This document shows, piece by piece, positions 2,252-44,258 of a stretch of 49,881 bases of DNA. The first letter of the stretch is position 1; every line of letters begins with the position of its first letter. The stretch is from assembly GCA_017454335.1 (NCBI GenBank), contig JAFTDE010000043.1, positions 1-49,881 on the forward strand, written 5' to 3'. The translations under genes were made by a program, and so were the position numbers. Source of the DNA: Bacteroidales bacterium. Its GTDB lineage: Bacteria > Bacteroidota > Bacteroidia > Bacteroidales > UBA932. The notes under the pieces were generated by a model. It searched no databases. It was not told the origin of the DNA and saw only the letters and a list, made by a program, of their open reading frames with translations.

Positions 2252-3130
2252 TTACTGCAGGTAGCGTTCGCGCAGGGTCCGGATGTCTTCTTCCGACAGC
2301 CCCATCGGCCCCTTGAGGTAGGCGTCGACCGATCCGTACTCCCGGTCAATGCGGTCCAGAGCTTTGACGAAATACTCGGTGCTGCAGCCCATGAAGGCTT
2401 TCACCACGGCGATTTCCTCTTCTTTCCCGCCCCAGAAGCGTACCCGGCGGCTGTATTTCCTTACGTCCTTCTCATAAACCTTGTTGGTGGCGTCGAAGTC
2501 GGCCACGATGGTCTGCCTGTCGGCGTCCAGGGCGGCCAGCAGGAGGGCGGAGGCGATGCCGGTGCGGTCTTTCCCCTGGGTGCAGTGATAGAGTACGGCA
2601 CCCTGGTCCGTGTCCAGGACCAGGCGGAAGAAACGGGCGAACTGCTGCTGGCACTCCGGGGTGAAAAGGAGGGTCGGGTACATGTCCCTGGCCACTTTCT
2701 TGGCCTTGTCATTGAAGGCGGCGAAGAGGATGATCTTCCTGACGTCGAATTTTTTCCGTCCGGTGAATTTCTTCTTCTCTTCCTCACTGGCCTGGGCGGC
2801 CATGTTCCCGCTGGCGTCGATGGGTAGGGAGATGTACGTGGCCCCCGGGACGGGACGGTCGGTCTTTCCCGCCAGTTCCTCTTCTTTCCGGAAATCGATG
2901 ACCTTGCCGGTCGGAAGTCCGGACAGGTAGCGGATGTCCGCGTCCGTGGCGTCGGCCAGGTGGGCTGCCCGGATCAGGACTCCGTTGCGGACGGTCCTTC
3001 CGTCCCGGACCGTATAGCCGCCCAGGTCACGGGCGTTGACGATTCCCTTGACCGGGAGGAACTGCTGGGCACAGAGGGTGGGGGAGAAGAGCATGGCGAG
3101 CGGGAAGACCAGGGTTCCGAAAACTTTCAT
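2252..3130 (-). CDS. Secreted tyrosine-phosphatase-like protein (Y_phosphatase3 type)
   Basis: About 292 residues with an N-terminal signal peptide (MKVFGTLVFPLAMLFSPTLCAQQ, cut near AQ), so periplasmic or exported. After an N-terminal FLPVKGIVNARDLGGYTV segment typical of the tyrosine/serine phosphatase family (Pfam Y_phosphatase3), the active-site loop is HCTQGKDRTG near residues 181-190, matching HCxxGKDRTG. Substrates in this family include phosphotyrosine and phosphoinositides; the target here is unknown. The ATG at 3130 gives a clean signal peptide. An upstream in-frame ATG at 3145 would overlap the end of the preceding kinase gene by four bases and add MMHCH before the signal. Co-directional with that kinase, probably one transcript. 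Confidence 0.85.
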   Translation of the reverse strand: MKVFGTLVFPLAMLFSPTLCAQQFLPVKGIVNARDLGGYTVRDGRTVRNGVLIRAAHLADATDADIRYLSGLPTGKVIDFRKEEELAGKTDRPVPGATYISLPIDASGNMAAQASEEEKKKFTGRKKFDVRKIILFAAFNDKAKKVARDMYPTLLFTPECQQQFARFFRLVLDTDQGAVLYHCTQGKDRTGIASALLLAALDADRQTIVADFDATNKVYEKDVRKYSRRVRFWGGKEEEIAVVKAFMGCSTEYFVKALDRIDREYGSVDAYLKGPMGLSEEDIRTLRERYLQ

Positions 3131-3141
3131 GTGACAGTGCA

Positions 3142-4002
3142 TCAAAGGAAGTATGAGCGCACGAGCCGCCGGATGTGGATGGCGAAAAAGATCTTCTCCG
3201 GCAGGCTGGGTTCCTGGAATTCGTAGCGGAGTATCATGTCCAGGCAGGCGAATTTCCCGGCCAGGCGGTCGAACTCCGCATGGTCGTCCTTCCCCGTGTA
3301 GGCCCGGGCGAAAGCGTCCCAGAAAAGGCGCAACTGGTCTTCGGACATGTGGAAGATGTCCTGGACCCTTTTCATGGGAGCATATACGTTGCAGATCTGG
3401 AAGAGGTGCCCGATGTCGAACATGGGGTCCCCGTATCCGAAGCGGTCCAGGTCGATCCAGTAGTACGCGCCCTCCGAGAAGATGAGGTTTCCCGTGTTGA
3501 AGTCCCCATGGATGCAGGTTTCGACCTCCGGGACGGTCAGGGCGAATGCCTCGATCTCCGCCAGGTCCCGCTTGCGGACGAAGCGAACCTTGTCCAGGCC
3601 GCTTTTCAGCTGGGCTTTCCGGCTGGGGAAAACGGACGTGTCGCAGGGCGTGCTGAACAGTTTCCGGCCGTACTCACACAGCACCCGGGCCATCTCTTCC
3701 GTGCGCTGTGCTTCGTCGCAGCAGATGCGGGAGAGGGATTTCTTGCCCCGGATGCGCTGGCTGAGGGTCGCGTAAGCGTCGCCCACGCGGACCATCTCAT
3801 ACATTTTCGGCGTCTGAACGCCCAGGCGCTCCACAGCCTTGGATACTTCGTACTCATGGGAGACGAATGCAAGCGTGTTGATGCCCGCTTTGTTGACTTT
3901 GAGGATCTTGTCCGGTTCGGCCGGATTCTCGTAGGCAGAACCGTTTCCGCCTTCGCCGACCTTGGTCCAGGCGCTGAGGTCGATGTCTCTGATTTCTTTC
4001 AT
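3142..4002 (-). CDS. Aminoglycoside phosphotransferase-like kinase (TIGR02172 type)
   Basis: A 286-residue small-molecule kinase with the protein-kinase-like fold. The N-terminal lobe has a glycine-rich turn (GEGGNGSAYEN) and ILKVNK as the ATP-binding lysine strand. The catalytic loop is HGDFNTGNLIF near residue 162 (HxDxxxxN), followed by IDLDRFGYGDP near residue 180, which supplies the metal-binding aspartate. This resembles the TIGR02172 group of putative kinases in Bacteroidota and Fibrobacter; the substrate is not known. The frame is open to an ATG at 4059, but the promoter box at 4029-4036 lies inside that extension and family similarity starts at MKEIRDIDL, so I place the start at 4002. 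Confidence 0.82.
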   Translation of the reverse strand: MKEIRDIDLSAWTKVGEGGNGSAYENPAEPDKILKVNKAGINTLAFVSHEYEVSKAVERLGVQTPKMYEMVRVGDAYATLSQRIRGKKSLSRICCDEAQRTEEMARVLCEYGRKLFSTPCDTSVFPSRKAQLKSGLDKVRFVRKRDLAEIEAFALTVPEVETCIHGDFNTGNLIFSEGAYYWIDLDRFGYGDPMFDIGHLFQICNVYAPMKRVQDIFHMSEDQLRLFWDAFARAYTGKDDHAEFDRLAGKFACLDMILRYEFQEPSLPEKIFFAIHIRRLVRSYFL

Positions 4003-4028
4003 GCCAGGGATGTTCGATGGTTCGGGAA

Positions 4029-4036
4029 CAAATATA
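4029..4036 (-). promoter_or_regulatory. -7 promoter box TATATTTG for the kinase-phosphatase pair
   Basis: Minus strand TATATTTG, an exact TAnnTTTG match, 27 bases before the chosen ATG at 4002. It decides against the longer reading from 4059. Confidence 0.65.
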
Positions 4037-4065
4037 CACTCTTTTTTCGTTCGGGGCATAAAAAA

Positions 4066-4130
4066 CGCTTGTGCTTTCAGAGATTATACCTATGGACAAA
4101 ATCAAGAATCTCGCGGATCTCCGCAAGATG
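4066..4130 (+). repeat. Orphan copy of the hydrogenase operon leader and first 13 codons
   Basis: Bases 4092-4130 are identical to 16059-16097, the first 39 bases (13 codons) of the HndB-like gene. The identity extends three bases further upstream (CCT). Bases 4066-4091 match 15955-15980 with three mismatches. The 75 bases that separate those two parts at the hydrogenase operon are missing here, and CCT stands at the junction, as expected if a deletion had occurred between two CCT triplets. Read as protein, this copy gives MDKIKNLADLRKMRRQ and stops at 4140-4142. Past codon 13 only patchy similarity remains. A minus-strand promoter box lies at 4155-4162, so the fragment could be transcribed antisense; on the minus strand a T6 run follows the repeat at 4060-4065. 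Confidence 0.85.
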
Positions 4131-4154
4131 CGAAGACAATGAGGAACGCCAGGG

Positions 4155-4162
4155 CAAAGATA
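4155..4162 (-). promoter_or_regulatory. Possible minus-strand -7 box TATCTTTG reading through the orphan repeat
   Basis: Minus strand TATCTTTG is an exact TAnnTTTG match. A start about seven bases downstream would give an RNA running through the complement of 4130-4066, that is, antisense to the start of the hydrogenase mRNA, then into a T run near 4060. It could equally be a second distant promoter for the kinase gene, or a chance match. Confidence 0.4.
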
Positions 4163-4175
4163 CTCTTATTATCAT

Positions 4176-4183
4176 TATATTTG
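4176..4183 (+). promoter_or_regulatory. -7 promoter box TATATTTG for the binding-protein/phosphatase operon
   Basis: Exact TAnnTTTG match, 27 bases upstream of the ATG at 4211. Confidence 0.65.
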
Positions 4184-4210
4184 CACGATTCTTTGCAAAA
4201 GCCTGACAGA

Positions 4211-5167
4211 ATGAAAAAACTAACAATTTGTGTGCTGGCCGCCGTCTTTGCCGTCCTTGGCAGCGGGCCCCTGGCGGCACAGGAGGAAACCATCGTTTTT
4301 ACGCCCCAGTGGACGGCGCAGGCGCAGTTTGCGGGCTATTATGTGGCGGAGGCGAAAGGGTTCTACCGGGAAGCGGGCGTGAATGTGCGGATTGAGCATC
4401 CGTCGTCCACCCAGCCGGCCATGAGCCGGCTTCGCAGGAACGAGTGTCAGGCTACGACGCTGCAGCTCTGCCAGGCGATGGAGATCATCGACGGCGGCAT
4501 TCCGCTGGTGAACATTCTGCAGACGTCCATGAACAATGCCATGGTGATCGTCTCGGCCCGGGATGAGGATCCGCTGAAGCAGAAAGGCGCCCGTGTGGGG
4601 ATCTGGAGCGTGGGTTTCGGCCAGTTGGCCATCTGTATGAGCATCATGGACAATTTGAACTACGAGTGGGTGCGTTTTGCGCAGAACGTCAATCTTTTTG
4701 TGGCGGGAGCGCTCGATGCCACCCTGGCCATGAGCTACAACGAATACTACCAGTTGATCCAGGCCGGCATGCAGATCTCCGACAGGAACGTTTACCGTTT
4801 CTGCGACCATGGATACAATGTCCAGGAGGATGGCGTCTATATGACCCGGGATTACTACGAGAAACACCTCGATCAGGCGCGCCGCTTTGCCGAGGCCAGC
4901 CGCCGAGGCTGGGAATGGGCTGCAGAGCACCCCGACGAGGCGTTGGACATCGTGATGAAATATGTGGACCGCGAGCACATCGCTACCAATCGGGTGCTGC
5001 AGCGGCTGATGCTGGAGGACGTGCTGCGCCTGCAGGTGGACCGCGAGTCGAAGCAACGCGAGTTCCGCCTGCGTCCCGACATGGTCAGGCTGGCCAGCGA
5101 TCTGATGGTGGAGAACCAGATGCTGGGCCGCGCGGTGACATACGAAGAAATCATTCCAAATGAGTAG
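4211..5167 (+). CDS. NMT1/THI5-like periplasmic substrate-binding protein
   Basis: A 318-residue exported protein with a clear signal peptide (MKKLTICVLAAVFAVLGSGPLAAQ). The mature part begins VFTPQWTAQAQFAGYYVAEAKGFYREAGVNV, the hallmark of NMT1/THI5-like ABC binding proteins, which bind pyrimidine precursors of thiamin, nitrate, taurine or related small molecules. The family's later ligand-lobe segments are also visible (GARVGIWSVGFG, LDATLAMSYNEYYQL). No ABC permease or ATPase is next to it. Instead a membrane phosphatase follows after 12 bases, which suggests the bound protein reports to that sensor rather than feeding a transporter. That role is inference. The start at 4211 is fixed by the signal peptide and the promoter box; the frame is open upstream but runs through the repeat region. 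Confidence 0.85.
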   Translation: MKKLTICVLAAVFAVLGSGPLAAQEETIVFTPQWTAQAQFAGYYVAEAKGFYREAGVNVRIEHPSSTQPAMSRLRRNECQATTLQLCQAMEIIDGGIPLVNILQTSMNNAMVIVSARDEDPLKQKGARVGIWSVGFGQLAICMSIMDNLNYEWVRFAQNVNLFVAGALDATLAMSYNEYYQLIQAGMQISDRNVYRFCDHGYNVQEDGVYMTRDYYEKHLDQARRFAEASRRGWEWAAEHPDEALDIVMKYVDREHIATNRVLQRLMLEDVLRLQVDRESKQREFRLRPDMVRLASDLMVENQMLGRAVTYEEIIPNE

Positions 5168-5179
5168 GGGGGAGCAAGT

Positions 5180-7147
5180 ATGAAAGACAGAATCATAGAT
5201 TATATCCGTCGCAAACTTTCCGTCCGGGTCAGCCTGTGGGTGGTCCTTTTTGCCGCCCTCATTTTCATCGGCGCCCTCAGTCTCCTGTTCTTCCAGGCCC
5301 GTGAGTCCGTGCGGCAGGAGGCCGTCAGCCGCGCTACGCAGATCCTGGATAAGACATCTCTCCAGGTTGAAAGTATCCTGAACCGCGTCGAAGTGGCGAC
5401 GGACATGACCGAGTGGCTGGTGATGCGGCACCCGGATGTGGCCGACTCGATGTTCGTGTACAGCCGCGGGATGCTGCAGAACAATCCGGATTTTTATAAC
5501 TGCTCCATAGCGTTTGAACCGTATTACTTCGAGGACCAGGGCCGTTACTTCTCCGCTTATTCCAAGCACGATGCCGATACGGTCCGCACCATCCAGGGTG
5601 GCAGCGACAACTACCAGTATTTCTACATGGACTGGTATCTGATGCCCAAACTGCTCGACCATCCGTGCTGGACGGAACCCTATATGGACCTGGATGTGCC
5701 TACGAACACCAGTGAAATGGTGTCCAGCTATTGCAAAGCCCTGAAGGACGAAGAAGGGCGCTTCGTCGGTGTCATCAACACCAGCCTGTCGCTGAACTGG
5801 CTCTCGAACACCATTTCGGCCGTGAAGCCCTATCCCCATTCCTACAGCATCATGACGGGCCGTGGGGGCACCTATTTCGTGCATCCCGATCCGGAGAAGA
5901 TCACCCGACAGTCCATCTTTACCCAGACCATGGAGCATCCCGATACGGCGATGGCCTCCCTGGGCCACAGCATGCAGCGCGGTGAAGAGGGGATCAAGCA
6001 CATGAGGGTGGACGGCATAGACAGTTATGTCTTTTACAAGCCCCTCGGCCAGACGGGCTGCAGCATGGCCATCGTCTGTCCCGAGAGCGACATCTTCGGT
6101 GGTTTCGACCGGCTGCGCCGTACGATCATCGCCATTGTTGCCATCGGCCTGTTGCTGATGCTATTCCTGTTCATCCGCATCATTACGCGCGAACTCAGTC
6201 CGCTGCGCCGGCTGGCCACGGAGGCGGAGACCATCGCCTCGGGTCAGTTCAATGCCGAACTTCCCGACTTCCAGCGCATCGACGAGATCGGCCAGCTGAG
6301 CCATTCGTTTGCAGGCATGCAGCAGTCGCTCGTGAAATACATTGACGAACTGAAGGATACGACGGCGCAGAAAGCCTCGATCGAGCGGGATCTGCGGATC
6401 GCGAGCAGCATCCAGATGGGCATGCTGCCCAAGTATTTCCCCACCGGATCGGACCGTGACGACGTGCAGATCTACGCATCGCTGACCCCGGCGAAGGACG
6501 TGGGTGGGGACCTGTTTGACTTTTATTTCCGCGACGGCATGCTCTTCTTCTGCATCGGGGACGTTTCCGGCAAGGGCATTCCCGCCTCGCTCTTCATGGC
6601 CGTCACCCGCTCCGTGTTCCGCACCGTGTCCGCCCACGAGTCGATGCCCGACCGTATCATGGACAGCCTGAACAAGACCATCGCCGACATGAACGACTCC
6701 GTCATGTTTGTCACCCTTTTCATCGGTGTGCTGGATCTCGCTACCGGTCGGATGCACTACTGCAACGCCGGCCATGACGCCCCGCTGCTTGTCGGGGCCG
6801 GGGTCGGCACGCTGCCCTGCGACCCGAACATCCCCGCGGGCGTGATGCCTGACTGGAAATACTCGCTGCAGGAAGCGCCGATCTATACCGGTACAACCAT
6901 CTTCCTGTTCACCGACGGGTTGACCGAGGCCGAGAATGTTTCCCATGAGCTGTTCAACATGCAGCGCGTGAACGATGTGGCCGTCCAGGCCCTTGCGGAC
7001 CGCCAGCAGGAACCCCGGCAACTCATTGCCCGCATGACCGAAGCCGTCCACAGTTTCGTGGGAGGCGCCGATCAGAGTGATGACCTCACGATGATGGGGA
7101 TCCAGTACATCAAGGGCGAAGCGTCCGGCAAGGAGAACGCCGTGTAA
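5180..7147 (+). CDS. Membrane SpoIIE/RsbU-type PP2C phosphatase with Cache-like sensor and HAMP
   Basis: A 655-residue transmembrane signalling phosphatase. Order of parts: membrane helix at about 16-38; extracytoplasmic sensor of about 270 residues resembling a double Cache domain (FYNCSIAFEPYYF, GVINTSLSLNWLS); second helix at about 314-332; HAMP linker to about 385; coiled segment; PP2C/SpoIIE domain at about 415-640. Metal-binding and catalytic motifs are intact: DVGGDLFDF, GDVSGKGIPA, NAGHD, FTDGLTEA and SDDLTMM. The known role of such phosphatases is to dephosphorylate a serine on a STAS anti-anti-sigma factor in a partner switch. No STAS protein lies in the window; two GHKL ATPases occur in the hydrogenase operon about 14-17 kb downstream. 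Cotranscribed with the preceding binding protein, and a purine-rich site (GGGGGGAG) precedes the ATG. Confidence 0.92.
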   Translation: MKDRIIDYIRRKLSVRVSLWVVLFAALIFIGALSLLFFQARESVRQEAVSRATQILDKTSLQVESILNRVEVATDMTEWLVMRHPDVADSMFVYSRGMLQNNPDFYNCSIAFEPYYFEDQGRYFSAYSKHDADTVRTIQGGSDNYQYFYMDWYLMPKLLDHPCWTEPYMDLDVPTNTSEMVSSYCKALKDEEGRFVGVINTSLSLNWLSNTISAVKPYPHSYSIMTGRGGTYFVHPDPEKITRQSIFTQTMEHPDTAMASLGHSMQRGEEGIKHMRVDGIDSYVFYKPLGQTGCSMAIVCPESDIFGGFDRLRRTIIAIVAIGLLLMLFLFIRIITRELSPLRRLATEAETIASGQFNAELPDFQRIDEIGQLSHSFAGMQQSLVKYIDELKDTTAQKASIERDLRIASSIQMGMLPKYFPTGSDRDDVQIYASLTPAKDVGGDLFDFYFRDGMLFFCIGDVSGKGIPASLFMAVTRSVFRTVSAHESMPDRIMDSLNKTIADMNDSVMFVTLFIGVLDLATGRMHYCNAGHDAPLLVGAGVGTLPCDPNIPAGVMPDWKYSLQEAPIYTGTTIFLFTDGLTEAENVSHELFNMQRVNDVAVQALADRQQEPRQLIARMTEAVHSFVGGADQSDDLTMMGIQYIKGEASGKENAV

Positions 7148-7267
7148 CTCATCGTTCTGTTGCGTTTTTTTGCGAAACAGACGCTGGAAAAAGTACGTAC
7201 CATTTCTTTTTCTTTTTTGATACTTCGGTTTATTGGACATGAAACGCCTCCTTCGGGCGTGGGGGTT

Positions 7268-7275
7268 TATTTTTG
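7268..7275 (+). promoter_or_regulatory. -7 promoter box TATTTTTG for the surface-protein operon
   Basis: Exact TAnnTTTG match 23 bases before the small ORF at 7299. Just upstream, 7244-7260 can fold into a short hairpin (ACGCC/GGCGT) followed by a G/T-rich run, which may terminate the phosphatase transcript. Confidence 0.6.
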
Positions 7276-7298
7276 TCTTTAAGAAATAATCCCAGACC

Positions 7299-7433
7299 AT
7301 GAAACAAAAGTATCTTGTGCCGGAGTGCGAAGAATTCTTCTGTGAGATCCCTGTCCCTCTCTGCCAGAGTGCCAGGTCCACAGAAGATGTTGAGGTATCG
7401 AACAATTCGTACGACGATGGCGATTTCAGTTAA
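7299..7433 (+). CDS. Small acidic protein at the head of the surface operon
   Basis: A 44-residue ORF (MKQKYLVPECEEFFCEIPV to YDDGDFS). Short ORFs of this type, starting MKxKYxxP and ending in an acidic DDGDF-like tail, are common directly upstream of fimbrillin and FISUMP genes in Bacteroidales. The function is not known, and the lack of a signal peptide suggests a cytoplasmic peptide. It is preceded by a consensus -7 box at 7268-7275 and is followed after 15 bases by the large lipoprotein gene. The stop at 7431-7433 is immediately followed by the AGGAGG ribosome-binding site of the next gene, so translational coupling is likely. Confidence 0.55.
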   Translation: MKQKYLVPECEEFFCEIPVPLCQSARSTEDVEVSNNSYDDGDFS

Positions 7434-7448
7434 CAGGAGGGCGCGAAG

Positions 7449-9230
7449 ATGAAACAACTCAAGAAAATTGCGGCCTTTGCGGCCATTGCACTTCTCGCCG
7501 GTATTTCCTGTGCAAAAGAGAACAACATTCCGGAGGATCCTTCCGTCCCATCCGTAGAACCGACAAGCCTGGTTTTTACGGCTTCGACCGAGCACGCTTT
7601 GTCCAAAACGACGCTTTCCGGTAACGACGCGGACGGATATTCCGTCCAATGGATGAACGGAGACGAGATTACCATTGTCGACGGTGCTGCGCATGTGGGT
7701 GTCTATTCCACGACCAGCACAACTACATCCGGTACCTTTACCTTCAACAGCGGCACGGAAGTTTCCACAGCCGATTATACGGCCTACTATCCGGCGTCCA
7801 TCTATAATGCGGGGGCACCTGAACTGCCGGAGGTCCAGACATACACCGAAGGAAACATTGCCGGATTCCCGATGTATGCGACAAGCAGTACCCCCAACCT
7901 GGGTTTCAAGAATCTCTGCGGCATCATTCGGTTGAATGTCAGCACTGTTTTACCTGGAAGAAAGGTGCGTCGCATCACTCTTTCTTCTAACCGGGGGATG
8001 AGCGGGGCAATCAGCAATATGGCAACGATTAGCTCGGACGGTTTTTCGGCTGCTGTCAGCGGAACGGCAGGAACTGTGCTGGATTGTGGCGGGGAAGGGG
8101 TCGCCATTTCCTCTGTGCCAACTTCTTTCTATGTAGCCGTTCCGGAGGGAACCTACCCGTCGCTGGCTATTGCGATCGAAACCACCGACGGAGCATCACA
8201 AACACGCATTTCCAACAAAGGTATTATCGTCACCAGGAGCCAGATCACAGATATCACGCTCTCCTACAATAAGCTGTTTGCCGATCTTAGTTCCGAAGGT
8301 ACAGGGAACACTTATATCATCAGTTCGGCCGGCCTCTATGGATTTGATGCTACCGTCATGGGCAATGGCGGCCTGGATCCGATGACGGGGACCAAAGCGG
8401 CATCCATCAACCCGGCAAACATCGCCGGGGTGAAGGTGCTTTGGGAATTGAATTCGCAGGGACGTGCCATCAAGCACGACGGAGACAGCTATGAAATACT
8501 CTATAATAACGGATATGTGTATTTCTCTACACCGGATTCCTTCCTTACCGGTGTCGCATGTGTGGCTATTTATGATAGTTCTGATAACATCCTTTGGAGT
8601 TGGGATCTTTGGGCTACATCAGCGCCCGGCACGATGACGTACAATGAAAAGACTTTCATGAACTGCAACCTCTGTGCTGTCTCCCAAAATAACAACCGCG
8701 GATTCCTGTACCAGTGGGGCCGCAAGGACGCCTTCTCCGCCGCAACCGGCAGTTATGCCTCCTTCGCTTTCGTGCCGGCCCTGCTCACGGCCTTCAATAC
8801 GGTGACGGGGATCCATACGATGGCCTACACGATAGCGAACCCCACCTCGCATATCAACAACGGGGACCCCAATTCCTGGATGCCGCAGGAAGAGTATGAC
8901 AAGCATCCCTGGATGGACGGAATAAAAACCATCTATGATCCCTGTCCCGCAGGATGGCGCGTCCCGACTTCCGATGACCAAAACGGAATGTCTGGCCTGC
9001 CGGGAACGGGTTTCAGTAATTCGATCAATGAATTCGGCAATCCCAATTCCGGATACTACCGATCTTCTACACAGACTACCTATCCCAGCGCGTATGCTTA
9101 TCGGCAGAATGGAGAACGCAACAACTGGGGGACGAATCCAGCCATGGCCATCCGCTGTGTCAGGGACGAAACCTTTGTCGCCTCACACGGGACGGAAGAT
9201 TATGATTATTTCGATTTAGATGAGAATTAG
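7449..9230 (+). CDS. Fimbrillin-like lipoprotein with C-terminal FISUMP domain
   Basis: A 593-residue surface lipoprotein. The signal peptide ends in a lipobox (LLAGISC), with lipidation expected at C21 followed by AKENN. Residues about 40-275 resemble the fimbrillin/Mfa1 fold (LVFTASTE, then VQWMNGDEITIVDG). Residues about 400-580 carry the FISUMP-type domain (FLYQWGRKDAF, YDPCPAGWRVPTSDD, MAIRCVRD). FISUMP domains are widespread in Bacteroidota surface proteins and are lectin-like in fold; the ligand is unknown. It has an unusually good Shine-Dalgarno site for this phylum (AGGAGGG) and is cotranscribed with the leucine-rich-repeat gene 12 bases downstream. Confidence 0.85.
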   Translation: MKQLKKIAAFAAIALLAGISCAKENNIPEDPSVPSVEPTSLVFTASTEHALSKTTLSGNDADGYSVQWMNGDEITIVDGAAHVGVYSTTSTTTSGTFTFNSGTEVSTADYTAYYPASIYNAGAPELPEVQTYTEGNIAGFPMYATSSTPNLGFKNLCGIIRLNVSTVLPGRKVRRITLSSNRGMSGAISNMATISSDGFSAAVSGTAGTVLDCGGEGVAISSVPTSFYVAVPEGTYPSLAIAIETTDGASQTRISNKGIIVTRSQITDITLSYNKLFADLSSEGTGNTYIISSAGLYGFDATVMGNGGLDPMTGTKAASINPANIAGVKVLWELNSQGRAIKHDGDSYEILYNNGYVYFSTPDSFLTGVACVAIYDSSDNILWSWDLWATSAPGTMTYNEKTFMNCNLCAVSQNNNRGFLYQWGRKDAFSAATGSYASFAFVPALLTAFNTVTGIHTMAYTIANPTSHINNGDPNSWMPQEEYDKHPWMDGIKTIYDPCPAGWRVPTSDDQNGMSGLPGTGFSNSINEFGNPNSGYYRSSTQTTYPSAYAYRQNGERNNWGTNPAMAIRCVRDETFVASHGTEDYDYFDLDEN

Positions 9231-9242
9231 GAGGGCCGAAGT

Positions 9243-12200
9243 ATGAAAAAATTCTTTGTTATTATAATGGTTTTCGGCCTCTGTGCCATCAATCATATTG
9301 CACGGGCCGACGAGGTGGATCCCACCTCCCATCTTACATACACAGTAAGCAGCAGCGAAGTGACCATCACGGGGATGGACCCCGACTTCACCCCTCCTGC
9401 TGATTATGCGCTCGTCATCCCCGACGAGATTGCCGGAATGCCGGTGGTGGCCATCGGCAATCAGGCGTTTTTGGATCAGACGACCATTGCATCGATTACA
9501 ATTGGAGACAACGTGCGGACTATCGGGACTGATGCGGTCCGCCGCTGCACGGCTTTGACAGAAATCATTTTCTCAACTGCAACCAACCTGACGACAATCG
9601 GCGAAAGTGCATTCAGAGGATGCAAGGCTACCAGCATATCAATCCCGGAAGGAGTTACAACGCTTGGGAAGTGGTCTATTGGTGTCTGTTCTCTTCTGGA
9701 GAGAGTTTCTTTGCCTAGCACTTTGACAACAATCGGCATTGGCGCCTTCAACTATTGCCCTCTCCTGGACAATGTTTCCATTCCCGCGTCTGTAGTATCG
9801 ATAGGTGACAATGCTTTCGACAATTGCACGGGCCTGACCTCCATTTCGATTGCATCGGGGCCCACCTCGATAGGACCTTATGCTTTCCAGAGTTGTACCC
9901 AACTCGCTTCGATTGCCATTCCTTCTTCAGTTACGACAATAGGCAATTATGCCTTCAAACAATGTACTGCTCTGGAGGAAGTTACCATTCCAAGCAGCGT
10001 AACCTATTTTGGCACTGATGTATTCAACGGGTGCACGGGTATGGTTACCGCCAATATTGACTGCCCCACCATTCCGGTTTCCTTCCTGAGTAGTAAAACG
10101 AGTCTTCAGAACGTTGTCATCGGTCCCCACGTGGGAACTATCGGCGCCAGCGCCTTCAAATACTGCACGGGACTCAGCAGTGTTTCCATCGCCGATGGCG
10201 CCACCATCCTTGGGGAAAGCGCCTTCCAGGGCTGTACCGCCATTACAAACATCTTTCTCCCCTCCACCCTCGTAACCATCGGAAACAGCGCATTCAATGG
10301 CTGTACGGCACTGACGAGTATCGCCATACCGTCCACCGTTACCACCATGGGAACGTACATCTTTCAGGGTTGCAGCCAGTTGGCTTCGGCTACGTTCGGC
10401 AGCGGGATTAACATTACATCCATTCCCGCCGGACTGTTTATGGACTGCCAGGTGCTGGGAAATGTGACCATACCTTCCGGTGTGACAAGCATAGGGCAGG
10501 AAGCTTTCCGCCGCTGTTACGGCTTTACCTCCATCTCGGTTCCTTCGGGTGTTACGTCCATCGGCGGTTATGCCTTCGACAATTGTTCAAATGCCACCTC
10601 CGTTTCCCTGCCAACAGGACTTACGACCATCGGAGAGTACGCTTTCCGGAACCTCTATAAGCTTACATCCTTTACCATACCCACGACGGTAACCACCATC
10701 GGACAATATGCTATGTCGTATTGCTCCGGCCTGACAAGTGTTGAGATTCCAAGTTCGGTGACAACGTTAGGAGCGGATGTTTTTAGAAGCTGTAAGGCGC
10801 TCACCACTGTAACATTCGCTTCCGGAAGCCATCTGACCGCGATTCCGGAATGGATGTTTTATGAATGTGAAAATTTTACCACAATACAGATTCCTGCTTC
10901 GGTTAAAACCATCGGGAATCGTGCGTTCTACAATACTCCATTGGAGTCGGTTACTTTCGAAGCAAACAGCCAGTTGACTACTATCGGAGAATATGCCTTT
11001 TGGACAAAGGAGTTGGAAAGCATTGTTATTCCAGCATCCGTAAAGACCCTGGGCTCGTACGCTTTCACTGGTTGCGAAAAACTCTCGTCTGTAACATTTG
11101 AGGCCAATAGCCAATTGACCACAATAGGTGACCGCGCATTCAATAATTGCACCGCCCTGACGGGGATTACCATTCCTGCCAAGGTGTCATCCATTGGTGC
11201 AAATGCATTCTTCAATTGCCAAGTGCTCGCTTCCGTAGTCATTCCCGCCAGCGTTACATCGATGGGCACCTCTGTTTTCCAGGCTTGCAGCCAGTTGGCA
11301 ACTGCCACGTTCGCCAGCGGGATTAACCTGACTTCCATCCCAGCCGGCCTGTTTATGGACTGCACAGCCCTGGAGAACGTCAATATTCCCACGACTGTAA
11401 CGGTCATTGACAAAGAGGCTTTCCGAAACTGCACGAAGCTTCCGCCAGTCACTCTCCCTTCCGGGCTGACAACCATCGGGGAGCTTGCTTTCTTCAATGA
11501 CAAGTTCAACTCGCTCACGATACCGGAATCCGTCACATCCATTGGCAAAGAGGCGTTTGCGTGGTGTACAAATATTTCCACCCTCGAGATCTCTGCCAAT
11601 GTGACAAGCATGGGCACCCACGCTTTCAACCATTGCACGAATCTGAACAACGTTATATTCGCGGCGCCGACTATGCCGAATTATGCCTTCCAAGAGTGCG
11701 CCAACCTCACGAATGTCACGATTGCCCCAACCGTAACTTCCATGGGAACCAATATCTTCAGGAAATGCATCTCGCTGAGGGAATTGGTTATTCCCCGCAG
11801 TGTGCAGTCGATTGGATATGCCCTGGTCGCGGAATGCACATCTTTTGAGACACTCGACCTTTCGGCCTGTTCGGATCTCTGGGACCTGTACAAGGGGAAC
11901 TTCAATGCCTCCGAGCAGTATGAATCATCGCTTGGCCTTACGGGGGTCATCATTCTCCTGCCTCCCGGCTCCAACGCCACCGGCACGGATATCTATCTGG
12001 CGCCCCAGCCGAACCTTTCTCAGGACGGGGACGGCTACTACCTCATCGGCTCGCCGGAAGAGTATACAGCTTTTGCGGCTCTTGTCCGTAGCACCCCTTC
12101 GGCCAATGCCCGGATCACAGCTGACATCGTCCTTACCGGCAACGAACCCACCATCGGCATAGGCCCTGATGAGAACAACAAGATTGCCTACGGCGGCATT

Positions 12201-13289
12201 TTTGACGGACAGGGGCATAGCATTAGCATTAACTTCACCAATGATAACCGCATTCAGCATAATTATGGCGGCCTGTTTACCTGGACGACCGACGCCACCA
12301 TCCGAAACCTTTGGGTGAAGGGATTGATGGAGACGACCAAACCCAGCGCAGGTGGTATCGTGGGTGGTGTAAAAGGAACGCTGGCCATCGAAAGATGTAT
12401 ATCCAGCGTTGCCATCACCGGCGTTGTGGAAACACTGACAGAGATGTATCTGGGCGGATTCATCGGCCAGACGCATTCCGCCACCATTACAGCCAATGAC
12501 TGCCTGACCACCGTTACGATAAACGGCGGCACCAATGTCAAATATGTAGCGGGCATTACCGGAAGGGTGGCGAACAGCAGTACCTTTGAAATTCATAGGT
12601 GCCTGTCCATGACCAATCTGAGTGATGCCACATCTCCTGCCGCATTCGCTTGGAAGTGGAGTGGATCCACCTCCATCGGAACCCACAACTTGTATTGGTC
12701 AGACGGATCCGACGGGGACCTTGACGCGGCGGCTTCGGCCTACCAAACTGCCGTCTCTCACACTCAGTTGGCAGATGGAACCATCGCAACGTTCCTCCAG
12801 GCAGGTCGCGCGGAAACCATCTGGGTGCAGGACGCAGTCTCGAACCTCCCCGCACTTAAACTGTTCGCCAGTGCCGTCACCACCGTCCTTTCCTCTGCCG
12901 TACCTGCGATAGTGATGGGTGAGGACAAATACGTAACGACCTTCTTCGACGGCACCAAATCTTACCGTCTGGCCCCGGGCGCTCTCGCATATACCGCAGG
13001 CCGGAACGGAACGGATATTATTTTCTACCGAATAGGCGAAGATAGCAACATTATCCCTCAGGGAACGGCAGTGATTATCGTTTCCGACACCTCGTACATA
13101 GAGCTGATCGAGCTCGAATCCACATCAGTTAGCGCCAGGGCCGGTAACATCCTCAGCGGCTCGGATACCGACACAGACACCCCCGCAGGGACAGTATATG
13201 TGCTCGGAGTTGCCGGAGAAACGCCCGGATTCTATGTCTACTCGGGAGCAACCATCCCCGCAGGAAAGGCCTATTATGTTGCGGAATAA
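9243..13289 (+). CDS. BspA-like leucine-rich-repeat surface protein
   Basis: A 1348-residue secreted protein. After a signal peptide (MKKFFVIIMVFGLCAINHIARA), residues about 55-880 are roughly 30 LRR_5/BspA-type repeats of about 23 residues of the form IPxxVTxIGxxAFxxCxxLxx. Residues about 920-1160 change to a GLUG-like repeat region (YGGIFDGQGHSI, AGGIVGGVKG, LGGFIGQTH). A compact C-terminal domain follows (about 1190-1348, ending GATIPAGKAYYVAE), seen in many Bacteroidales surface proteins. BspA-type LRR proteins in related organisms bind host matrix or other cells. There is no transmembrane anchor and no clear type IX secretion signal. Repeats with near-identical DNA (for example 10375-10450 and 11280-11360) point to internal duplication. 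Second large gene of the surface operon; Shine-Dalgarno AGGAGGG. Confidence 0.9.
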   Translation: MKKFFVIIMVFGLCAINHIARADEVDPTSHLTYTVSSSEVTITGMDPDFTPPADYALVIPDEIAGMPVVAIGNQAFLDQTTIASITIGDNVRTIGTDAVRRCTALTEIIFSTATNLTTIGESAFRGCKATSISIPEGVTTLGKWSIGVCSLLERVSLPSTLTTIGIGAFNYCPLLDNVSIPASVVSIGDNAFDNCTGLTSISIASGPTSIGPYAFQSCTQLASIAIPSSVTTIGNYAFKQCTALEEVTIPSSVTYFGTDVFNGCTGMVTANIDCPTIPVSFLSSKTSLQNVVIGPHVGTIGASAFKYCTGLSSVSIADGATILGESAFQGCTAITNIFLPSTLVTIGNSAFNGCTALTSIAIPSTVTTMGTYIFQGCSQLASATFGSGINITSIPAGLFMDCQVLGNVTIPSGVTSIGQEAFRRCYGFTSISVPSGVTSIGGYAFDNCSNATSVSLPTGLTTIGEYAFRNLYKLTSFTIPTTVTTIGQYAMSYCSGLTSVEIPSSVTTLGADVFRSCKALTTVTFASGSHLTAIPEWMFYECENFTTIQIPASVKTIGNRAFYNTPLESVTFEANSQLTTIGEYAFWTKELESIVIPASVKTLGSYAFTGCEKLSSVTFEANSQLTTIGDRAFNNCTALTGITIPAKVSSIGANAFFNCQVLASVVIPASVTSMGTSVFQACSQLATATFASGINLTSIPAGLFMDCTALENVNIPTTVTVIDKEAFRNCTKLPPVTLPSGLTTIGELAFFNDKFNSLTIPESVTSIGKEAFAWCTNISTLEISANVTSMGTHAFNHCTNLNNVIFAAPTMPNYAFQECANLTNVTIAPTVTSMGTNIFRKCISLRELVIPRSVQSIGYALVAECTSFETLDLSACSDLWDLYKGNFNASEQYESSLGLTGVIILLPPGSNATGTDIYLAPQPNLSQDGDGYYLIGSPEEYTAFAALVRSTPSANARITADIVLTGNEPTIGIGPDENNKIAYGGIFDGQGHSISINFTNDNRIQHNYGGLFTWTTDATIRNLWVKGLMETTKPSAGGIVGGVKGTLAIERCISSVAITGVVETLTEMYLGGFIGQTHSATITANDCLTTVTINGGTNVKYVAGITGRVANSSTFEIHRCLSMTNLSDATSPAAFAWKWSGSTSIGTHNLYWSDGSDGDLDAAASAYQTAVSHTQLADGTIATFLQAGRAETIWVQDAVSNLPALKLFASAVTTVLSSAVPAIVMGEDKYVTTFFDGTKSYRLAPGALAYTAGRNGTDIIFYRIGEDSNIIPQGTAVIIVSDTSYIELIELESTSVSARAGNILSGSDTDTDTPAGTVYVLGVAGETPGFYVYSGATIPAGKAYYVAE

Positions 13290-13301
13290 AACGATAACTA
13301 T

Positions 13302-14258
13302 ATGAAAAAGAATATATTAGCGACAATTGCACTGGTGGGCGCTCTATGTTGGACCGGCTGCCAGAAGGATTTGACCATTGACGGGGACCCCAATGGAGGG
13401 GAGCTGTCACAGACTGATTCTGTATGGACACTCACGCTGCATGCGGTGAAGAACGATGGCACCCTGACGAAAGGACTTGCCATCGGCGACGGAGACACCG
13501 AAGCAGCTACAACGGTCCTAAAATCAATTTGGAAAGCCGGAGACAAGGTCCATGTTTTTCTGGGAGAGCGTTATGTCGGAGAACTCACTGCGGCTCCGGA
13601 TGAACAGGATCCTCACTTCGCAACCCTCTGGGGGATGGTGACTACTGCCGGAATCAAGCCTGGAGTTTCTTCCCTCACGTTGCTCACCCCCCGCAGGGAG
13701 TGGGACTATACAGGACAAAACGGCAAGCTGCTGGCCATCGATGATCCGGAGAATTCCATAGAATCCAAGTACCATTATACGATGGCTTCGAATGTGCCGG
13801 TGACGGCTGCCACGGCCGGAATTATTACAACAGAAACGGCGACCTTTACCAACCAGCAAAGTATCTACCGAATGAACTTCCGTTTCCAGAACGACGGGGG
13901 GAATGATAAAGTGGCTGTCAATGCCAAAACGGTTACCATTTCCGGCGCAGGAGCCCATCTGGTGCAACACTATGATCCGGAAGGGTTGAGCATGAAGAGA
14001 GAGGGAGACATCTCGGTCTCGTTATCAGAGGCTACTACCGATCCCTTCTTTGTCGCTATCTGCAATGAATATGCGCGTGGCAATGAAGAGGTATTCACTT
14101 TTACGGTCATTGATGATGATGGGGCGACTTACAAGGGAAGCAAGACCATTCCGGGAGAATACAACAACAACGGTAGTTTCGTGAGTATGAAAAATACGAC
14201 ACTCAACTACCGACTGGAAATGAATCTGAATTCCTCTTCGGTGGATACGGTGCTGTAA
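13302..14258 (+). CDS. Fimbrillin-like (Mfa2-type) lipoprotein
   Basis: A 318-residue lipoprotein with signal peptide MKKNILATIALVGALCWTGC; the lipobox cysteine is C20. The body (VWTLTLHAVKNDG, LKSIWKAGDKVHVFLGERYVGELTA, IYRMNFRFQ, TINGAGAH-like and NYRLEMNL segments) resembles the beta-rich fimbrillin/Mfa2-like fold used by Bacteroidales fimbrial subunits and anchors. Assignment rests on overall pattern rather than on any catalytic motif. It begins 12 bases after the LRR gene and is the last member of the operon. With the two preceding genes it probably forms a surface appendage or adhesin complex. Confidence 0.7.
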   Translation: MKKNILATIALVGALCWTGCQKDLTIDGDPNGGELSQTDSVWTLTLHAVKNDGTLTKGLAIGDGDTEAATTVLKSIWKAGDKVHVFLGERYVGELTAAPDEQDPHFATLWGMVTTAGIKPGVSSLTLLTPRREWDYTGQNGKLLAIDDPENSIESKYHYTMASNVPVTAATAGIITTETATFTNQQSIYRMNFRFQNDGGNDKVAVNAKTVTISGAGAHLVQHYDPEGLSMKREGDISVSLSEATTDPFFVAICNEYARGNEEVFTFTVIDDDGATYKGSKTIPGEYNNNGSFVSMKNTTLNYRLEMNLNSSSVDTVL

Positions 14259-14268
14259 TTAAATTGCT

Positions 14269-14276
14269 TATCTTTA
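14269..14276 (+). promoter_or_regulatory. Near-consensus -7 box TATCTTTA before the kelch-AraC gene
   Basis: Seven of eight positions of TATCTTTG; it ends four bases before the GTG start at 14281, implying an almost leaderless transcript separate from the surface operon. Confidence 0.45.
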
Positions 14277-14280
14277 CCGA

Positions 14281-15951
14281 GTGAAGACAATCCTGTCCAT
14301 ACTCGCCATGGCTGCCATCTTCACGGCGTGTGCTCCGGCCCAGCCCGGAGGCCGCGTCGTGACGGGGCCGGACGGGACGCAGTGGCACCCCATGAGTGTG
14401 GAACGGTTGCCTGATTTGAATGAGCCCAGGGGCAGCCACCGGACGCTGACGATGGGTGGGGAGATCGTGGTGCTGGGCGGACACACTGACGGGTTCAAGC
14501 CCATCGAAACGGCGGAGTACTACGCAAACGGTGCCTGGCACACAATTCCTATGCTCTACCCCCACGAGAATGGCTTCGCTGCGCCGCTTCCGGATGGGCG
14601 GGTCCTGCTGGGCGGTGGTAGCCAGGAAGCTTTTGGTATCGGGCAGAGCTGGGGGGCTGAAGTCTATGACCCCACCATTCATCAGTTTACTTCTGTCGGA
14701 ATCATGACAGCCAAGCGTGCCATGTCTTCGGCACTCACCCAGCCGGACGGGCGAGTCGTCATTGTCGGAAACTGGCGTGCCCCCGATAGCTATGAGACCT
14801 GGTCTCCGGAGGATGGATTCGCTCCGGGAGCACGGATTGATCCCGGTTGGGCAGAGCCCTATATCTTCCCTGCTTCCCTTGACGATATCATCATTTTCGG
14901 TCCATGGGACCCCCAGGGCGGTATTCCCGGTGGCCGGGTCGATCATCTGGGCGGAGAGCCGGAATGGGTCCCGTTGCTGGAGGAGTGGGAAGTACAGGCC
15001 AACTACCATTCCTCCCCGTCAGACCTGCAAGTCGCCGATTATACCTATCTGATACCTGCCCAAAACCGATCCACAAACGAATGCGCCATTCTGAAGTTGG
15101 CTCACGGAGTTTTTTCTCTTCTGGAGATGGATGCGTCGCTTCCGGAGAGGGGACCGGAGGGGTATCTCATCGAATGGAGACATCTCCAGGTGGATCGTCC
15201 CGCCCGGCTGATCTGGGTGCAGGGCATGAATTCGGAGACGGGCCAGATATGCTTTGCCCGAATCAGCTATGATGCTACTTTTGACGGCGGCAAAGCGACG
15301 ACGACGCTTTATTATGCAAATATTCCCGGCGAAGCCCCGTCCGGCTTTGCCCGGCTCCTACCGGGCGGCAGATTGGTTCTTGCCGGCGGGCTGGGCTGGA
15401 AGACCGGCTCTTTCCCCATCGAAGTGGATAATTTCAAGACTTTTTCCTCTGTTTTTGTCTTCCACTCTGAGCAGCCGAATAAGGAGAACCTGCCGCTATG
15501 GGCCATTTTGGCTGGGATTCTGGTCCTTGGCGGGGGTGTGGTGATGCTGATTGTGGGCATCCAACGCAGACGCCGATCTCCGGATGAGACTGCAGCGGTG
15601 GAGGAGGGCGTGTTGTCCCGCAATCTCATGGAACAGATTTCCACCCTCATCGAGGAGAAAGAGCTATACCGTCGCAAGGACCTTCGTATCACGGACCTGG
15701 CCTCGGAACTCGCTACCAACAAGACCTATATCAGCGTTCTGCTGAACAAACTCTCTGGTGAAAGTTTTACCTCATTGATTACTAAACATCGCATCCAGTA
15801 TGCCCAGCGGCTATTGCGCGAAGATCCCGACATGATCCTTGACGATGTCGCCGACCAGTCCGGATTCTCCTCCCGCACCACCTTCTTCCGCAATTTCAAG
15901 GCCGTCACCGGCATGACGCCCCAGGAGTGGAAGCGTGAGAATGTCGGCTGA
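14281..15951 (+). CDS. Membrane-spanning regulator: kelch-like propeller plus AraC-type HTH
   Basis: A 556-residue protein with a GTG start. The N-terminus is a lipoprotein-like signal (ILAMAAIFTAC, C17). Residues about 45-400 form a kelch/galactose-oxidase-like beta-propeller (EIVVLGGHTD, GRVLLGGGSQ, GRVVIVGNW, GRLVLAGGLGW). One membrane helix lies at about 403-428 and is followed by RRRR. Residues about 450-556 are an AraC-type DNA-binding domain with two HTH motifs (ITDLASELATNKTYISVLLN and the conserved second motif with SGFSSRTTFFRNFKAVTGMTPQEW). It therefore resembles a one-piece version of the hybrid two-component systems of Bacteroidota, joining a periplasmic sensor directly to a cytoplasmic AraC output with no kinase. 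The obvious candidate target is the surface operon immediately upstream; the ligand is unknown. Confidence 0.88.
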   Translation: MKTILSILAMAAIFTACAPAQPGGRVVTGPDGTQWHPMSVERLPDLNEPRGSHRTLTMGGEIVVLGGHTDGFKPIETAEYYANGAWHTIPMLYPHENGFAAPLPDGRVLLGGGSQEAFGIGQSWGAEVYDPTIHQFTSVGIMTAKRAMSSALTQPDGRVVIVGNWRAPDSYETWSPEDGFAPGARIDPGWAEPYIFPASLDDIIIFGPWDPQGGIPGGRVDHLGGEPEWVPLLEEWEVQANYHSSPSDLQVADYTYLIPAQNRSTNECAILKLAHGVFSLLEMDASLPERGPEGYLIEWRHLQVDRPARLIWVQGMNSETGQICFARISYDATFDGGKATTTLYYANIPGEAPSGFARLLPGGRLVLAGGLGWKTGSFPIEVDNFKTFSSVFVFHSEQPNKENLPLWAILAGILVLGGGVVMLIVGIQRRRRSPDETAAVEEGVLSRNLMEQISTLIEEKELYRRKDLRITDLASELATNKTYISVLLNKLSGESFTSLITKHRIQYAQRLLREDPDMILDDVADQSGFSSRTTFFRNFKAVTGMTPQEWKRENVG

Positions 15952-16011
15952 ATTCGCTTGTCATTTCAGAGAATATACCTAAATTAGTAGGCTGAAAGCG
16001 TTATGCGGAAC

Positions 16012-16026
16012 CTAATCGAAGATTAG
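16012..16026. promoter_or_regulatory. Inverted repeat CTAATC-GAA-GATTAG upstream of the hydrogenase operon
   Basis: A perfect six-base inverted repeat with a three-base spacer lies 32 bases before the ATG at 16059. No exact TAnnTTTG box is visible in 15952-16058, so this site is a candidate operator or the stem of a leader hairpin. It does not resemble a Rex site. The 107-base leader also holds the 26-base match to 4066-4091. Confidence 0.3.
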
Positions 16027-16058
16027 TAATCATAATATAACAAAAACTGAGCAAACCT

Positions 16059-16448
16059 ATGGACAAAATCAAGAATCTCGCGGATCTCCGCAAGATGAAG
16101 GAGAGCATGCAAGGCAGGATGTCGATGCGTGAAAACAGCGACTCCTCCGAAGCGATCATTCAAATCAAGGTCGGTATGGCCACCAGCGGTATTGCCTCGG
16201 GAGCGAAGGAGACCATGAACTACCTCATCAGCGAACTGGACAAGCGCCAGATCAAGGCGCTGGTGATGCAGGTGGGTGACATGGGCTACAGCTATGCCGA
16301 GCCTACCGTCGAGGTCACCATTCCCGGCAAGGATCCCGTCGTTTTCGGAGACGTCAAGATCCCCCGCGCCCAGGAAATCATCGAGAAGTACATCATCGGT
16401 GGTGAACTGATCGAGGGTATTCTGCCTGCAAACTACAGATCTATCTAA
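16059..16448 (+). CDS. HndB-like subunit of NAD(H)-linked [FeFe]-hydrogenase, without cysteines
   Basis: A 129-residue protein resembling HndB and other thioredoxin-like [2Fe-2S] ferredoxin-domain subunits of multimeric [FeFe]-hydrogenases. The family's GMGTCGIAAGA and GCMGLCYAEPTVEV blocks appear here as GMATSGIASGA and GDMGYSYAEPTVEV. The positions usually occupied by cluster cysteines are Ser, Asp and Ser, and there is no cysteine anywhere in the chain. It therefore cannot carry a cysteine-bound [2Fe-2S] cluster and may be structural. First gene of the hydrogenase operon, 24 bases before the NuoF-like gene. Its first 39 bases are duplicated at 4092-4130. Confidence 0.8.
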   Translation: MDKIKNLADLRKMKESMQGRMSMRENSDSSEAIIQIKVGMATSGIASGAKETMNYLISELDKRQIKALVMQVGDMGYSYAEPTVEVTIPGKDPVVFGDVKIPRAQEIIEKYIIGGELIEGILPANYRSI

Positions 16449-18266: not shown

Positions 18267-18280
18267 GGGAGGAATCAAAT

Positions 18281-20056: not shown

Positions 20057-20063
20057 TTGAACC

Positions 20064-20549
20064 ATGTGTGGACCCCAGATAAAAATCAGTGAAGCCAATT
20101 ACCTGAAGATTAAGGAAATCTGCGCTTCCTTCAACAATAACCCGGGCGAGTTGATCAACATCCTGCACAAGACGCAGGAGCACTTCGGCTATCTGCCCGA
20201 GGAAGTCCAGCAAGTCGTGGCCGACTGCCTCGGAATTCCTGTCGGCAAGGTGTACGGCGTCGTGTCCTTCTACAGCTTCTTCACCATGAAGCCGAAGGGC
20301 AAGTATGCCATCTCCGTCTGCCTCGGAACGGCCTGCTACGTCAAGGGTGCCGAGAAGATCCTCGATGCCTTGAAGAGCGAGCTCAAGATCTCCGAGGGCG
20401 GCGTCACGCCCGACGGCAAGTTCTCCCTGGATGTCCTGCGCTGCGTGGGCGCCTGCGGACTGGCTCCGGTCATGACCATCAACGGCAAGACCTACGGCCG
20501 CCTGGTTCCCGAGCACGTCAAGGAAATCCTGGCTGAGTACGCGGACTAA
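20064..20549 (+). CDS. NuoE/HydC-like [2Fe-2S] subunit of the hydrogenase
   Basis: A 161-residue thioredoxin-like ferredoxin subunit. After a helical N-terminal half (ELINILHKTQEHFGYLP), the [2Fe-2S] ligands are CLGTAC (CX4C) and CVGAC (CX3C), as in NuoE, HydC and HndA. It relays electrons between the NADH-binding subunit and the rest of the complex. It is the last gene of the structural operon, 7 bases after the catalytic subunit gene, and a strong intrinsic terminator follows 22 bases after the stop. All four ligands are present, in contrast to the HndB-like subunit of the same operon. Confidence 0.93.
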   Translation: MCGPQIKISEANYLKIKEICASFNNNPGELINILHKTQEHFGYLPEEVQQVVADCLGIPVGKVYGVVSFYSFFTMKPKGKYAISVCLGTACYVKGAEKILDALKSELKISEGGVTPDGKFSLDVLRCVGACGLAPVMTINGKTYGRLVPEHVKEILAEYAD

Positions 20550-20650: not shown

Positions 20651-20995
20651 ATGACTATCAAAGAAATTGCCAGACTGGTCGACGGGGAGATCGTGGGTGC
20701 CCCCGCCGACGACAACTATGAAGTGAAAAAAGCCTTCGCCTCCGATCTGATGAGTGATGTGCTCCGTTATTCGATGGACGAGACGGTGCTGATCACCGGA
20801 CTGTGCAACAACCAGACGATGCGCACCTCGGAGATGTCAGACCTGCGCGTGGTGCTGATCGGCCGCGACAAACAGCCCGACGAGGATATGCTCGAACTGG
20901 CCGAGGACCTGGAAATCACCCTGATCAAATCCAAGTACAGTATTTTCAAAATCAGCGGCATCCTGTACGGCGCCGGCATCCAGCCCCTGTATTGA
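20651..20995 (+). CDS. DRTGG-domain protein (first copy)
   Basis: A 114-residue single-domain protein of the DRTGG family. Visible family features are the N-terminal IKEIARLVDGEIVG strand-helix, the FASDLMSDVLRY block shared with the second copy at 22766 (YASDLLSDVMGN), a central VVLIGRDKQPDEDMLELAEDLEI segment and a short C-terminal strand. DRTGG domains occur next to CBS, phosphotransacetylase and hydrogenase genes; their ligand is not established. It heads the operon with the sensory hydrogenase, ahead of a GHKL ATPase whose gene starts three bases after its stop. Confidence 0.85.
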   Translation: MTIKEIARLVDGEIVGAPADDNYEVKKAFASDLMSDVLRYSMDETVLITGLCNNQTMRTSEMSDLRVVLIGRDKQPDEDMLELAEDLEITLIKSKYSIFKISGILYGAGIQPLY

Positions 20996-20997
20996 TC

Positions 20998-21411: not shown

Positions 21412-21415
21412 CGAT

Positions 21416-22759: not shown

Positions 22760-22765
22760 AATCAT

Positions 22766-23095: not shown

Positions 23096-23101
23096 CATCC
23101 G

Positions 23102-36570: not shown

Positions 36571-36643
36571 GGGGTATTAGCTCAGTTGGTAGAGCGATAG
36601 GTTCGCAATCTATAGGTCAGGGGTTCGAATCCCCTATGCTCCA
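36571..36643 (+). tRNA. tRNA-Ala(CGC)
   Basis: A full cloverleaf of 73 bases. The acceptor GGGGTAT pairs with ATGCTCC, including the G3:U70 wobble pair that marks alanine tRNAs. The D arm is GCTCAGTTGGTAGAGC; the anticodon stem ATAGG/TCTAT closes the loop TTCGCAA, so the anticodon is CGC, reading GCG. The T arm is AGGGG-TTCGAAT-CCCCT and the discriminator is A. CCA is not encoded. A terminator hairpin follows at once. Confidence 0.95.
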
Positions 36644-37639: not shown

Positions 37640-37647
37640 CAAAGTTA
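37640..37647 (-). promoter_or_regulatory. -7 promoter box TAACTTTG for the DUF3089 gene
   Basis: Exact minus-strand TAnnTTTG match, 24 bases before the ATG at 37616. Confidence 0.65.
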
Positions 37648-37659
37648 CCATAAAAACAG

Positions 37660-37667: not shown

Positions 37668-37706
37668 GTAAACCAAACCACCTTTCACTGAATAATAACG
37701 ATGTCC

Positions 37707-44245: not shown

Positions 44246-44258
44246 ATGATATTCTTTC

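Follow-up and report, generated by a model that had tools for sequence, protein, structure and literature searches.

A partial copy of the hydrogenase operon start

We analyzed a stretch of 49,881 bases (the window), which carries an [FeFe]-hydrogenase operon with the gene order hydX-hydB-hydA-hydC (Table 1). The hydA product scored above the cut-off of the NCBIfam [FeFe] hydrogenase group A6 model (843.9 bits, cut-off 765). The product of hydX had no match in Pfam or NCBIfam and was found to resemble the N-terminal domain of NfnB, NADH dehydrogenase, and HoxF chains in PDB (best three with E values of 1.2e-9 to 1.6e-5). The hydF gene is located further along after the operon, beside two radical-SAM genes which we take, from their domains and position, to be hydE and hydG. 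The region after the operon (20651-24366) also contains a pair of small paralogs (one at 20651, carrying a DRTGG domain, and one at 22766), genes that we labeled kinase-like and PHP-type, and an Fe-hydrogenase-like gene (21416-22759). This gene order was kept in the genomes G279, G077, G087, and G088.

Table 1 Features of the hydrogenase operon, the fragment, and their neighbors in the window.
Feature	Position	Strand	Description
Tyrosine phosphatase gene (Yphos)	2252-3145	-	Follows the APH-like gene
APH-fold phosphotransferase family gene (TIGR02172)	3142-4002	-	Frame stays open as far as an ATG at 4059
TATATTTG	4029-4036	-	Probably the -7 box of the APH-like gene itself; 26 bases to the ATG at 4002
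Orphan frame	4092-4142	+	16 codons (MDKIKNLADLRKMRRQ, stop): 13 hydX codons and 3 others
Back-to-back promoter pair	4155-4183		TATCTTTG (-, 4155-4162), 13-base spacer, TATATTTG (+, 4176-4183)
Intervening block	4131-16058		NMT1-SpoIIE pair (4214-7147), g7449-LRR-g13302-AraC cassette (7449-15951), hydrogenase leader
NMT1/THI5-like substrate-binding protein gene	4214-5167	+	Start of the intervening block
Hydrogenase leader, intact	15955-16058	+	-7-like box TAAATTAG at 15980-15987
hydX	16059-16448	+	129 aa, first gene of the operon
hydB (NuoF-like), hydA, hydC (NuoE-like)	16473-20549	+	NCBIfam profile matches
Second orphan gene start	37694-37753	+	Copy of 40563-40624, start of gene 40578-42014

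A fragment of 65 bases (4066-4130), which copies parts of the operon start, sits 12 kb before the real operon. Comparison of both copies revealed an exact match of 43 out of 43 bases between 4088-4130 and 16055-16097 in the same orientation, comprising the last 4 leader bases and the first 13 codons of hydX. The initial annotation of the locus had given 39 of 39 identical bases (4092-4130 and 16059-16097), and the match in fact extends leftward to 4088. The remaining part of the fragment, 4066-4091, was aligned with 15955-15980, a leader piece upstream of the -7 box, at 23 of 26 positions, as had been claimed; the second-best site for this 26-mer in the window reached only 17 of 26. The 43-base match was the longest of four exact repeats of at least 18 bases in the whole window, searched in either orientation.

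Between these two parts, the fragment lacks 78 source bases (15981-16058), not 75 as first counted. The gap removes the 5'UTR and the -7-like box, save the first bases of the box. The junction falls on the sequence ACCTA, common to both edges of the gap (15977-15981 and 16055-16059), which fits a deletion between short repeats. In a box scan, the TANNTTNG box was present in 29 out of 31 gene leaders and absent in the 110 bases before the frame of the fragment. No third copy of the 39-mer was found in the 2,158,546-base assembly at up to 3 mismatches (0 in the reversed-pattern control), which is about 79% complete, so that a further copy could have been missed. A known RNA family at the fragment was rejected, as an Rfam gathering scan of the window found just a tRNA (36571-36643).

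The fragment has sharp edges. To the right, 4131-4213 was no more similar to the rest of hydX than shuffles were (279 of 300 reached its score), nor was its similarity to the operon up to 20600 above shuffles (164 of 300). To the left, the similarity of 4003-4065 to 15601-15954 was not significant (85 of 300). Similarity extending beyond the fragment in either direction, being no better than single-base shuffles, was rejected. The two copies differ at 3 of 26 positions in the leader part and at 0 of 43 in the core, which has a probability of 0.05 if changes are spread evenly over 69 bases; this is less remarkable because one of the two core copies is under coding constraint.

That the sharp edge stems from synonymous constraint peculiar to the first 13 codons was not supported by a codon comparison of 31 hydX sequences (three shortened ones dropped and two identical ones merged beforehand). 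The mean synonymous pairwise difference was 0.235 for codons 1-16, 0.269 for codons 17-32, and 0.195 for codons 33-48, and was higher for codons 49-129 (0.321-0.402). The low values through codon 48 indicate that conservation covers the entire first third of hydX rather than the copied part alone. The initial annotation had taken the sharp decay beyond the 13 codons as favoring recent conversion or selection: the similarity does end at 4130, but a breakpoint would look alike. The hydX coding start also contains a near-palindrome, ATCTYGCGGA-NN-TCCGCAAGAT, at 16075-16096 (codons 6-13). The codons AAT, GCG, CGC, and AAG were invariant in 31 of 31 sequences, which had been collected with an expression that required GCG and AAG, and AAY and CGN in part.

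The hydrogenase start and its neighbors in other genomes

We searched 400 genomes of the genus, own genome included, drawn from a larger group. The hydrogenase start pattern was found at 32 places in 30 genomes: two in the own genome, two on different contigs in G404, and one in each of 28 others. Among the 30 places in the 29 relatives, 29 run into a full-length hydX, and the remaining one is interrupted by the end of its contig. The two places in G404 do not amount to another orphan, since both lead into full hydX. None of the 29 other genomes with a hydrogenase start, many of them incomplete assemblies, contained an orphan copy. Since all places in the relatives lead into hydX, the orphan copy is unique to the own genome within what was searchable, and the suggestion that the 39-base identity might be kept in relatives and covary with the hydrogenase gene was not borne out. 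In a named genome collection, 34 stretches had one match each, all titled Bacteroidales or Bacteroidia; by their record titles, the relatives are uncultured Bacteroidales. A ruminant host was named in 18 of the 34 matching stretches (records of the own genome were possibly left out of the scan).

The genes flanking the fragment were more widespread, with relatives of the APH-like gene in 60 and of NMT1 in 25 out of 100 other genomes. The 43-mer had no copy within flanks of up to 1.5 kb around the NMT1 relatives (26 loci, L020-L045; best 27 of 43) or the APH relatives (29 loci, L047-L075; best 25 of 43). When 3850-4330 was searched against the 400 genomes, with up to two candidates scored per genome, no listed match joined the fragment to either neighbor. 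Some of the listed matches stopped at the APH start codon or a few bases from it, others covered hydrogenase starts in hydrogenase genes, and the remainder fell in the promoter pair or NMT1. A 53-base match in G357 was rejected as support, being that genome's own hydX start. APH/Yphos neighbors were present in just 1 of 30 upstream hydrogenase loci. In this genome, G279, the Yphos and APH genes are located upstream of hydX, which follows Yphos on the same strand at a distance of 118 bases. This is a hint of an old APH/Yphos-hydX neighborhood. As the fragment in the window diverges from the APH-like gene, at least one inversion would be needed to relate the two arrangements.

The block between the two copies appears to be composite. 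NMT1 and SpoIIE were adjacent in all 14 relatives examined at this locus, out of 25 with an NMT1 match, and the g7449-LRR-g13302-AraC cassette recurs in G286, a genome with no hydrogenase start in the 400-genome scan. The 12-kb block thus looks like two separately travelling gene groups, not one insertion element. NMT1, g7449, g13302, and the AraC gene were found in none of the 30 hydrogenase loci (E 1e-5; 0.8-12.6 kb of upstream DNA); LRR matches below 200 aa in these loci, or below 300 aa in a separate scan, were left out of the listings. No integrase or transposase was matched among the block proteins scanned in Pfam (NMT1, SpoIIE, g7449, LRR, g13302, and AraC), NCBIfam (the same without SpoIIE), or PHROGs (without LRR). 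In G359, the hydrogenase locus (L127) has a SpoIIE-like gene about 6-8 kb away. In G109 (L150, C20, 7560-13721), NMT1/THI5-like and SpoIIE-type genes lie about 0.75 kb before hydG-hydF, and in G077, too, a SpoIIE-like gene is located before hydG. Gene order around the hydrogenase genes has thus been reshuffled. It is possible that NMT1/SpoIIE is functionally linked to hydrogenase maturation.

A back-to-back promoter pair beside the fragment

The minus-strand TATCTTTG box and the run of six T on the minus strand at 4060-4065 (A6 on the plus strand), from which the initial annotation had built a transcript, are both present. We found that the box is one half of a back-to-back pair, of which the plus half is the probable -7 box of NMT1. 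Pairs with a spacer of 9-18 were observed 49 times in the own genome and 0 times in the reversed control; across 31 genomes, there were 12 to 57 pairs per genome, compared with 0 to 8 in controls. In 1,573,263 bases from partly overlapping loci, so that the counts are not independent, the spacers peaked at 12 bases (14 pairs) and 13 bases (9 pairs), and no pair had a spacer of 6-10 or 15-17. The convergent arrangement of the boxes had no comparable spacer peak, and the reversed control gave 3 in all. An extra peak at a spacer of 5 (9 pairs) is without explanation.

All 8 pairs in the window and 20 own-genome stretches had ATG-started frames of at least 60 aa on both sides. For 15 of the 16 sides, the distance between the box and the ATG of the longest frame was 6-33 bases. 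The exception was the minus side of 4155-4183, where 95 bases separate the box from the first frame, a gap that looks like the loss of the original partner gene. Five of the matches to 3850-4330 in other genomes fall on the stretch of the pair, and both boxes and the flanking frames are present in L253-L256 (not in L252). The window contains further pairs at 37640-37667 and 44238-44266. Back-to-back -7 boxes of the form CAAANNTA-N-TANNTTTG with a spacer of 12-13 appear to be a bidirectional promoter architecture that is used throughout the genus, and the minus half of 4155-4183 is likely to be a working promoter that lost its original gene.

As TATCTTTG is half of a genus-typical pair, backward transcription of the fragment is plausible, and we give it an even chance. 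The scan detected no terminator-like site at the T6 run, so a transcript would run on into the APH-like gene. The sole terminator-like site in 3900-4300 was a hairpin on the minus strand (4129-4108), which lies inside the fragment and has a weak T tail; 0.5 such sites are expected per shuffled region. The 91-nt minus-strand RNA folded no better than shuffles (z -0.39).

Origin of the fragment

The window contains a second orphan gene start (Table 1), which matches its source at 85% of 62 bases with an exact core of 26 bases. The source gene encodes a PreA-like domain, and two minus-strand paralogs lie between the copies. The second orphan start consists of a leader end and about 16 codons, has a frame that runs for about 75 codons, and is located directly downstream of the plus half of the promoter pair 37640-37667. 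Its geometry is the same as that of the hydX fragment. In G103 (L141, C48), 3101-3234 copies 5129-5262, an early part of a MATE transporter gene (134 bases, 93%), about 2 kb before that gene and with three genes between. A base-rate scan of 91 loci including the window (1,250,549 bases, some overlapping; ATG-started ORFs of at least 90 aa) uncovered 15 repeat pairs of 24-250 bases, 4 of which were flagged: the two window cases, L141, and L127. The L127 pair, with both copies in one long ORF, is probably a repeat within that gene. In 20 own-genome stretches (322,714 bases), we found paralog starts and dispersed repeats, and one pair (L232, 394-467 and 1085-1158) is possibly a further orphan start, located next to tandem paralogs. 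Orphan-start scars thus occur elsewhere too, at a low rate in the scanned samples. The end of the window (49721-49881) matches positions 1-159 of another contig of the same genome (L243, G000:C31) on the opposite strand (161 bases, 96%), as either a contig-end repeat or an overlap.

In our view, the fragment probably has no function and is a remnant, left by duplication and loss, of the hydrogenase operon's 5' end. It is a partial copy of a gene that is intact elsewhere, it lacks the box and the UTR, its frame ends after 16 codons, and it is absent from the relatives searched. The scar is real and unusual-looking, yet ordinary. The operon start would once have been beside the APH-like gene, which is plausible but not proven. 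A duplication, most simply in tandem, would have had one end inside hydX at codon 13, leaving the intact leader and gene 12 kb on; the sharp right edge at 4130 would then be the duplication breakpoint. The remainder of the first copy would have been lost, and a deletion between the two ACCTA repeats would have removed 78 bases from the remnant, including the 5'UTR and the greater part of the -7 box. The back-to-back promoter of NMT1 now faces the remnant, which may therefore be transcribed backwards within an extended leader for the APH-like gene, to no effect. Here we infer the order of events, the mechanism of duplication, and the lack of function. Several observations count against this reading. 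No change is seen in the 43 core bases of a remnant that should be free to decay, so either the event was recent, or the copy is conserved or converted. APH/Yphos genes neighbor the hydrogenase start in a single other genome, in a different orientation. The duplication intermediate was found in no genome examined, and the backward promoter half looks real.

The initial annotation had put forward a possible trans-acting antisense RNA against the start codon region of hydX; transcribed from TATCTTTG, it would start near 4148. Its predicted promoter has gained support as half of a genus-typical pair with the spacer of 13, backed by the sharp spacer peak and the frames on both sides of all 8 pairs in the own-genome DNA covered, and the complementarity is perfect over 43 bases. 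The terminator, the fold, and the conservation have gained none: the RNA lacks a terminator at T6, folds no better than shuffles, and has no orphan counterpart in the 29 other hydrogenase-bearing genomes of the 400-genome scan. Moreover, if the internal hairpin had any effect, it would stop the RNA near 4098, short of the start codon complement, and the APH-like gene is directly downstream. We therefore regard such an RNA as unlikely. It is similarly improbable that the fragment was captured by the idle half of the bidirectional promoter and became a newborn trans antisense that damps hydrogenase synthesis in one species, or a regulatory leader of the APH-like gene. Expression of the 16-codon frame as a small peptide, or as a leader peptide of NMT1, is scarcely credible: the frame is open and has a start codon, but no -7 box lies upstream and the probable NMT1 box lies downstream of it.

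The remaining explanations concern how the two copies came to be in one contig. A contig mis-joined at the common 43 bases would be conceivable in an assembly that is fragmented and incomplete (63 contigs), but a mis-join alone would not produce a leader piece of 26 bases together with the loss of 78 bases at a 5-base repeat, and the flanks are distinct on both sides of both copies. An assembly artefact is as unlikely as an antisense function. An alternative raised initially was an 11.9-kb insertion that re-created the gene start. Such a rearrangement scar is indeed better supported than the antisense RNA, with the change that the 11.9 kb looks like two gene groups rather than a single insertion element. 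Site-specific integration at the hydX start with duplication of the target would explain why the block is bounded by direct repeats; however, none of the scanned block proteins matched an integrase or transposase, the two groups that make up the block occur separately in relatives, and the other genomes with a hydrogenase start show no orphan beside hydX. This makes integration very unlikely.

Read as a scar, the fragment records a rebuilding of the gene order around the [FeFe]-hydrogenase operon, and the similar second scar in the window suggests a repeated process. If an antisense transcript exists and acts, a rearrangement and a bidirectional promoter would have created a trans-acting regulator in one step. 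Duplication-random-loss is a model for animal mitochondrial gene order (PMC5745709). The fragment is like the remnants in that model in being a partial copy, in the same orientation as an intact copy elsewhere and with no similarity outside. It is unlike them in lying on a bacterial chromosome and in having no observed intermediate, and we use the name by analogy. With Bacteroides trans-encoded sRNAs and DonS-type cis-antisense RNAs (PMC7366714), the locus shares a TAnnTTTG-type box, and it is conceivable that its RNA could pair with the start region of an mRNA. Unlike those RNAs, the candidate is predicted from sequence, has no terminator or conservation, would derive from a gene fragment, and would have its target 12 kb away. 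The pair at 4155-4183, predicted from sequence, differs from described bidirectional bacterial promoters (PMC12825309, PMC10268837) in its Bacteroidota-type -7 boxes and 12-13 base spacer. It resembles them in that two back-to-back elements could drive transcription in both directions.
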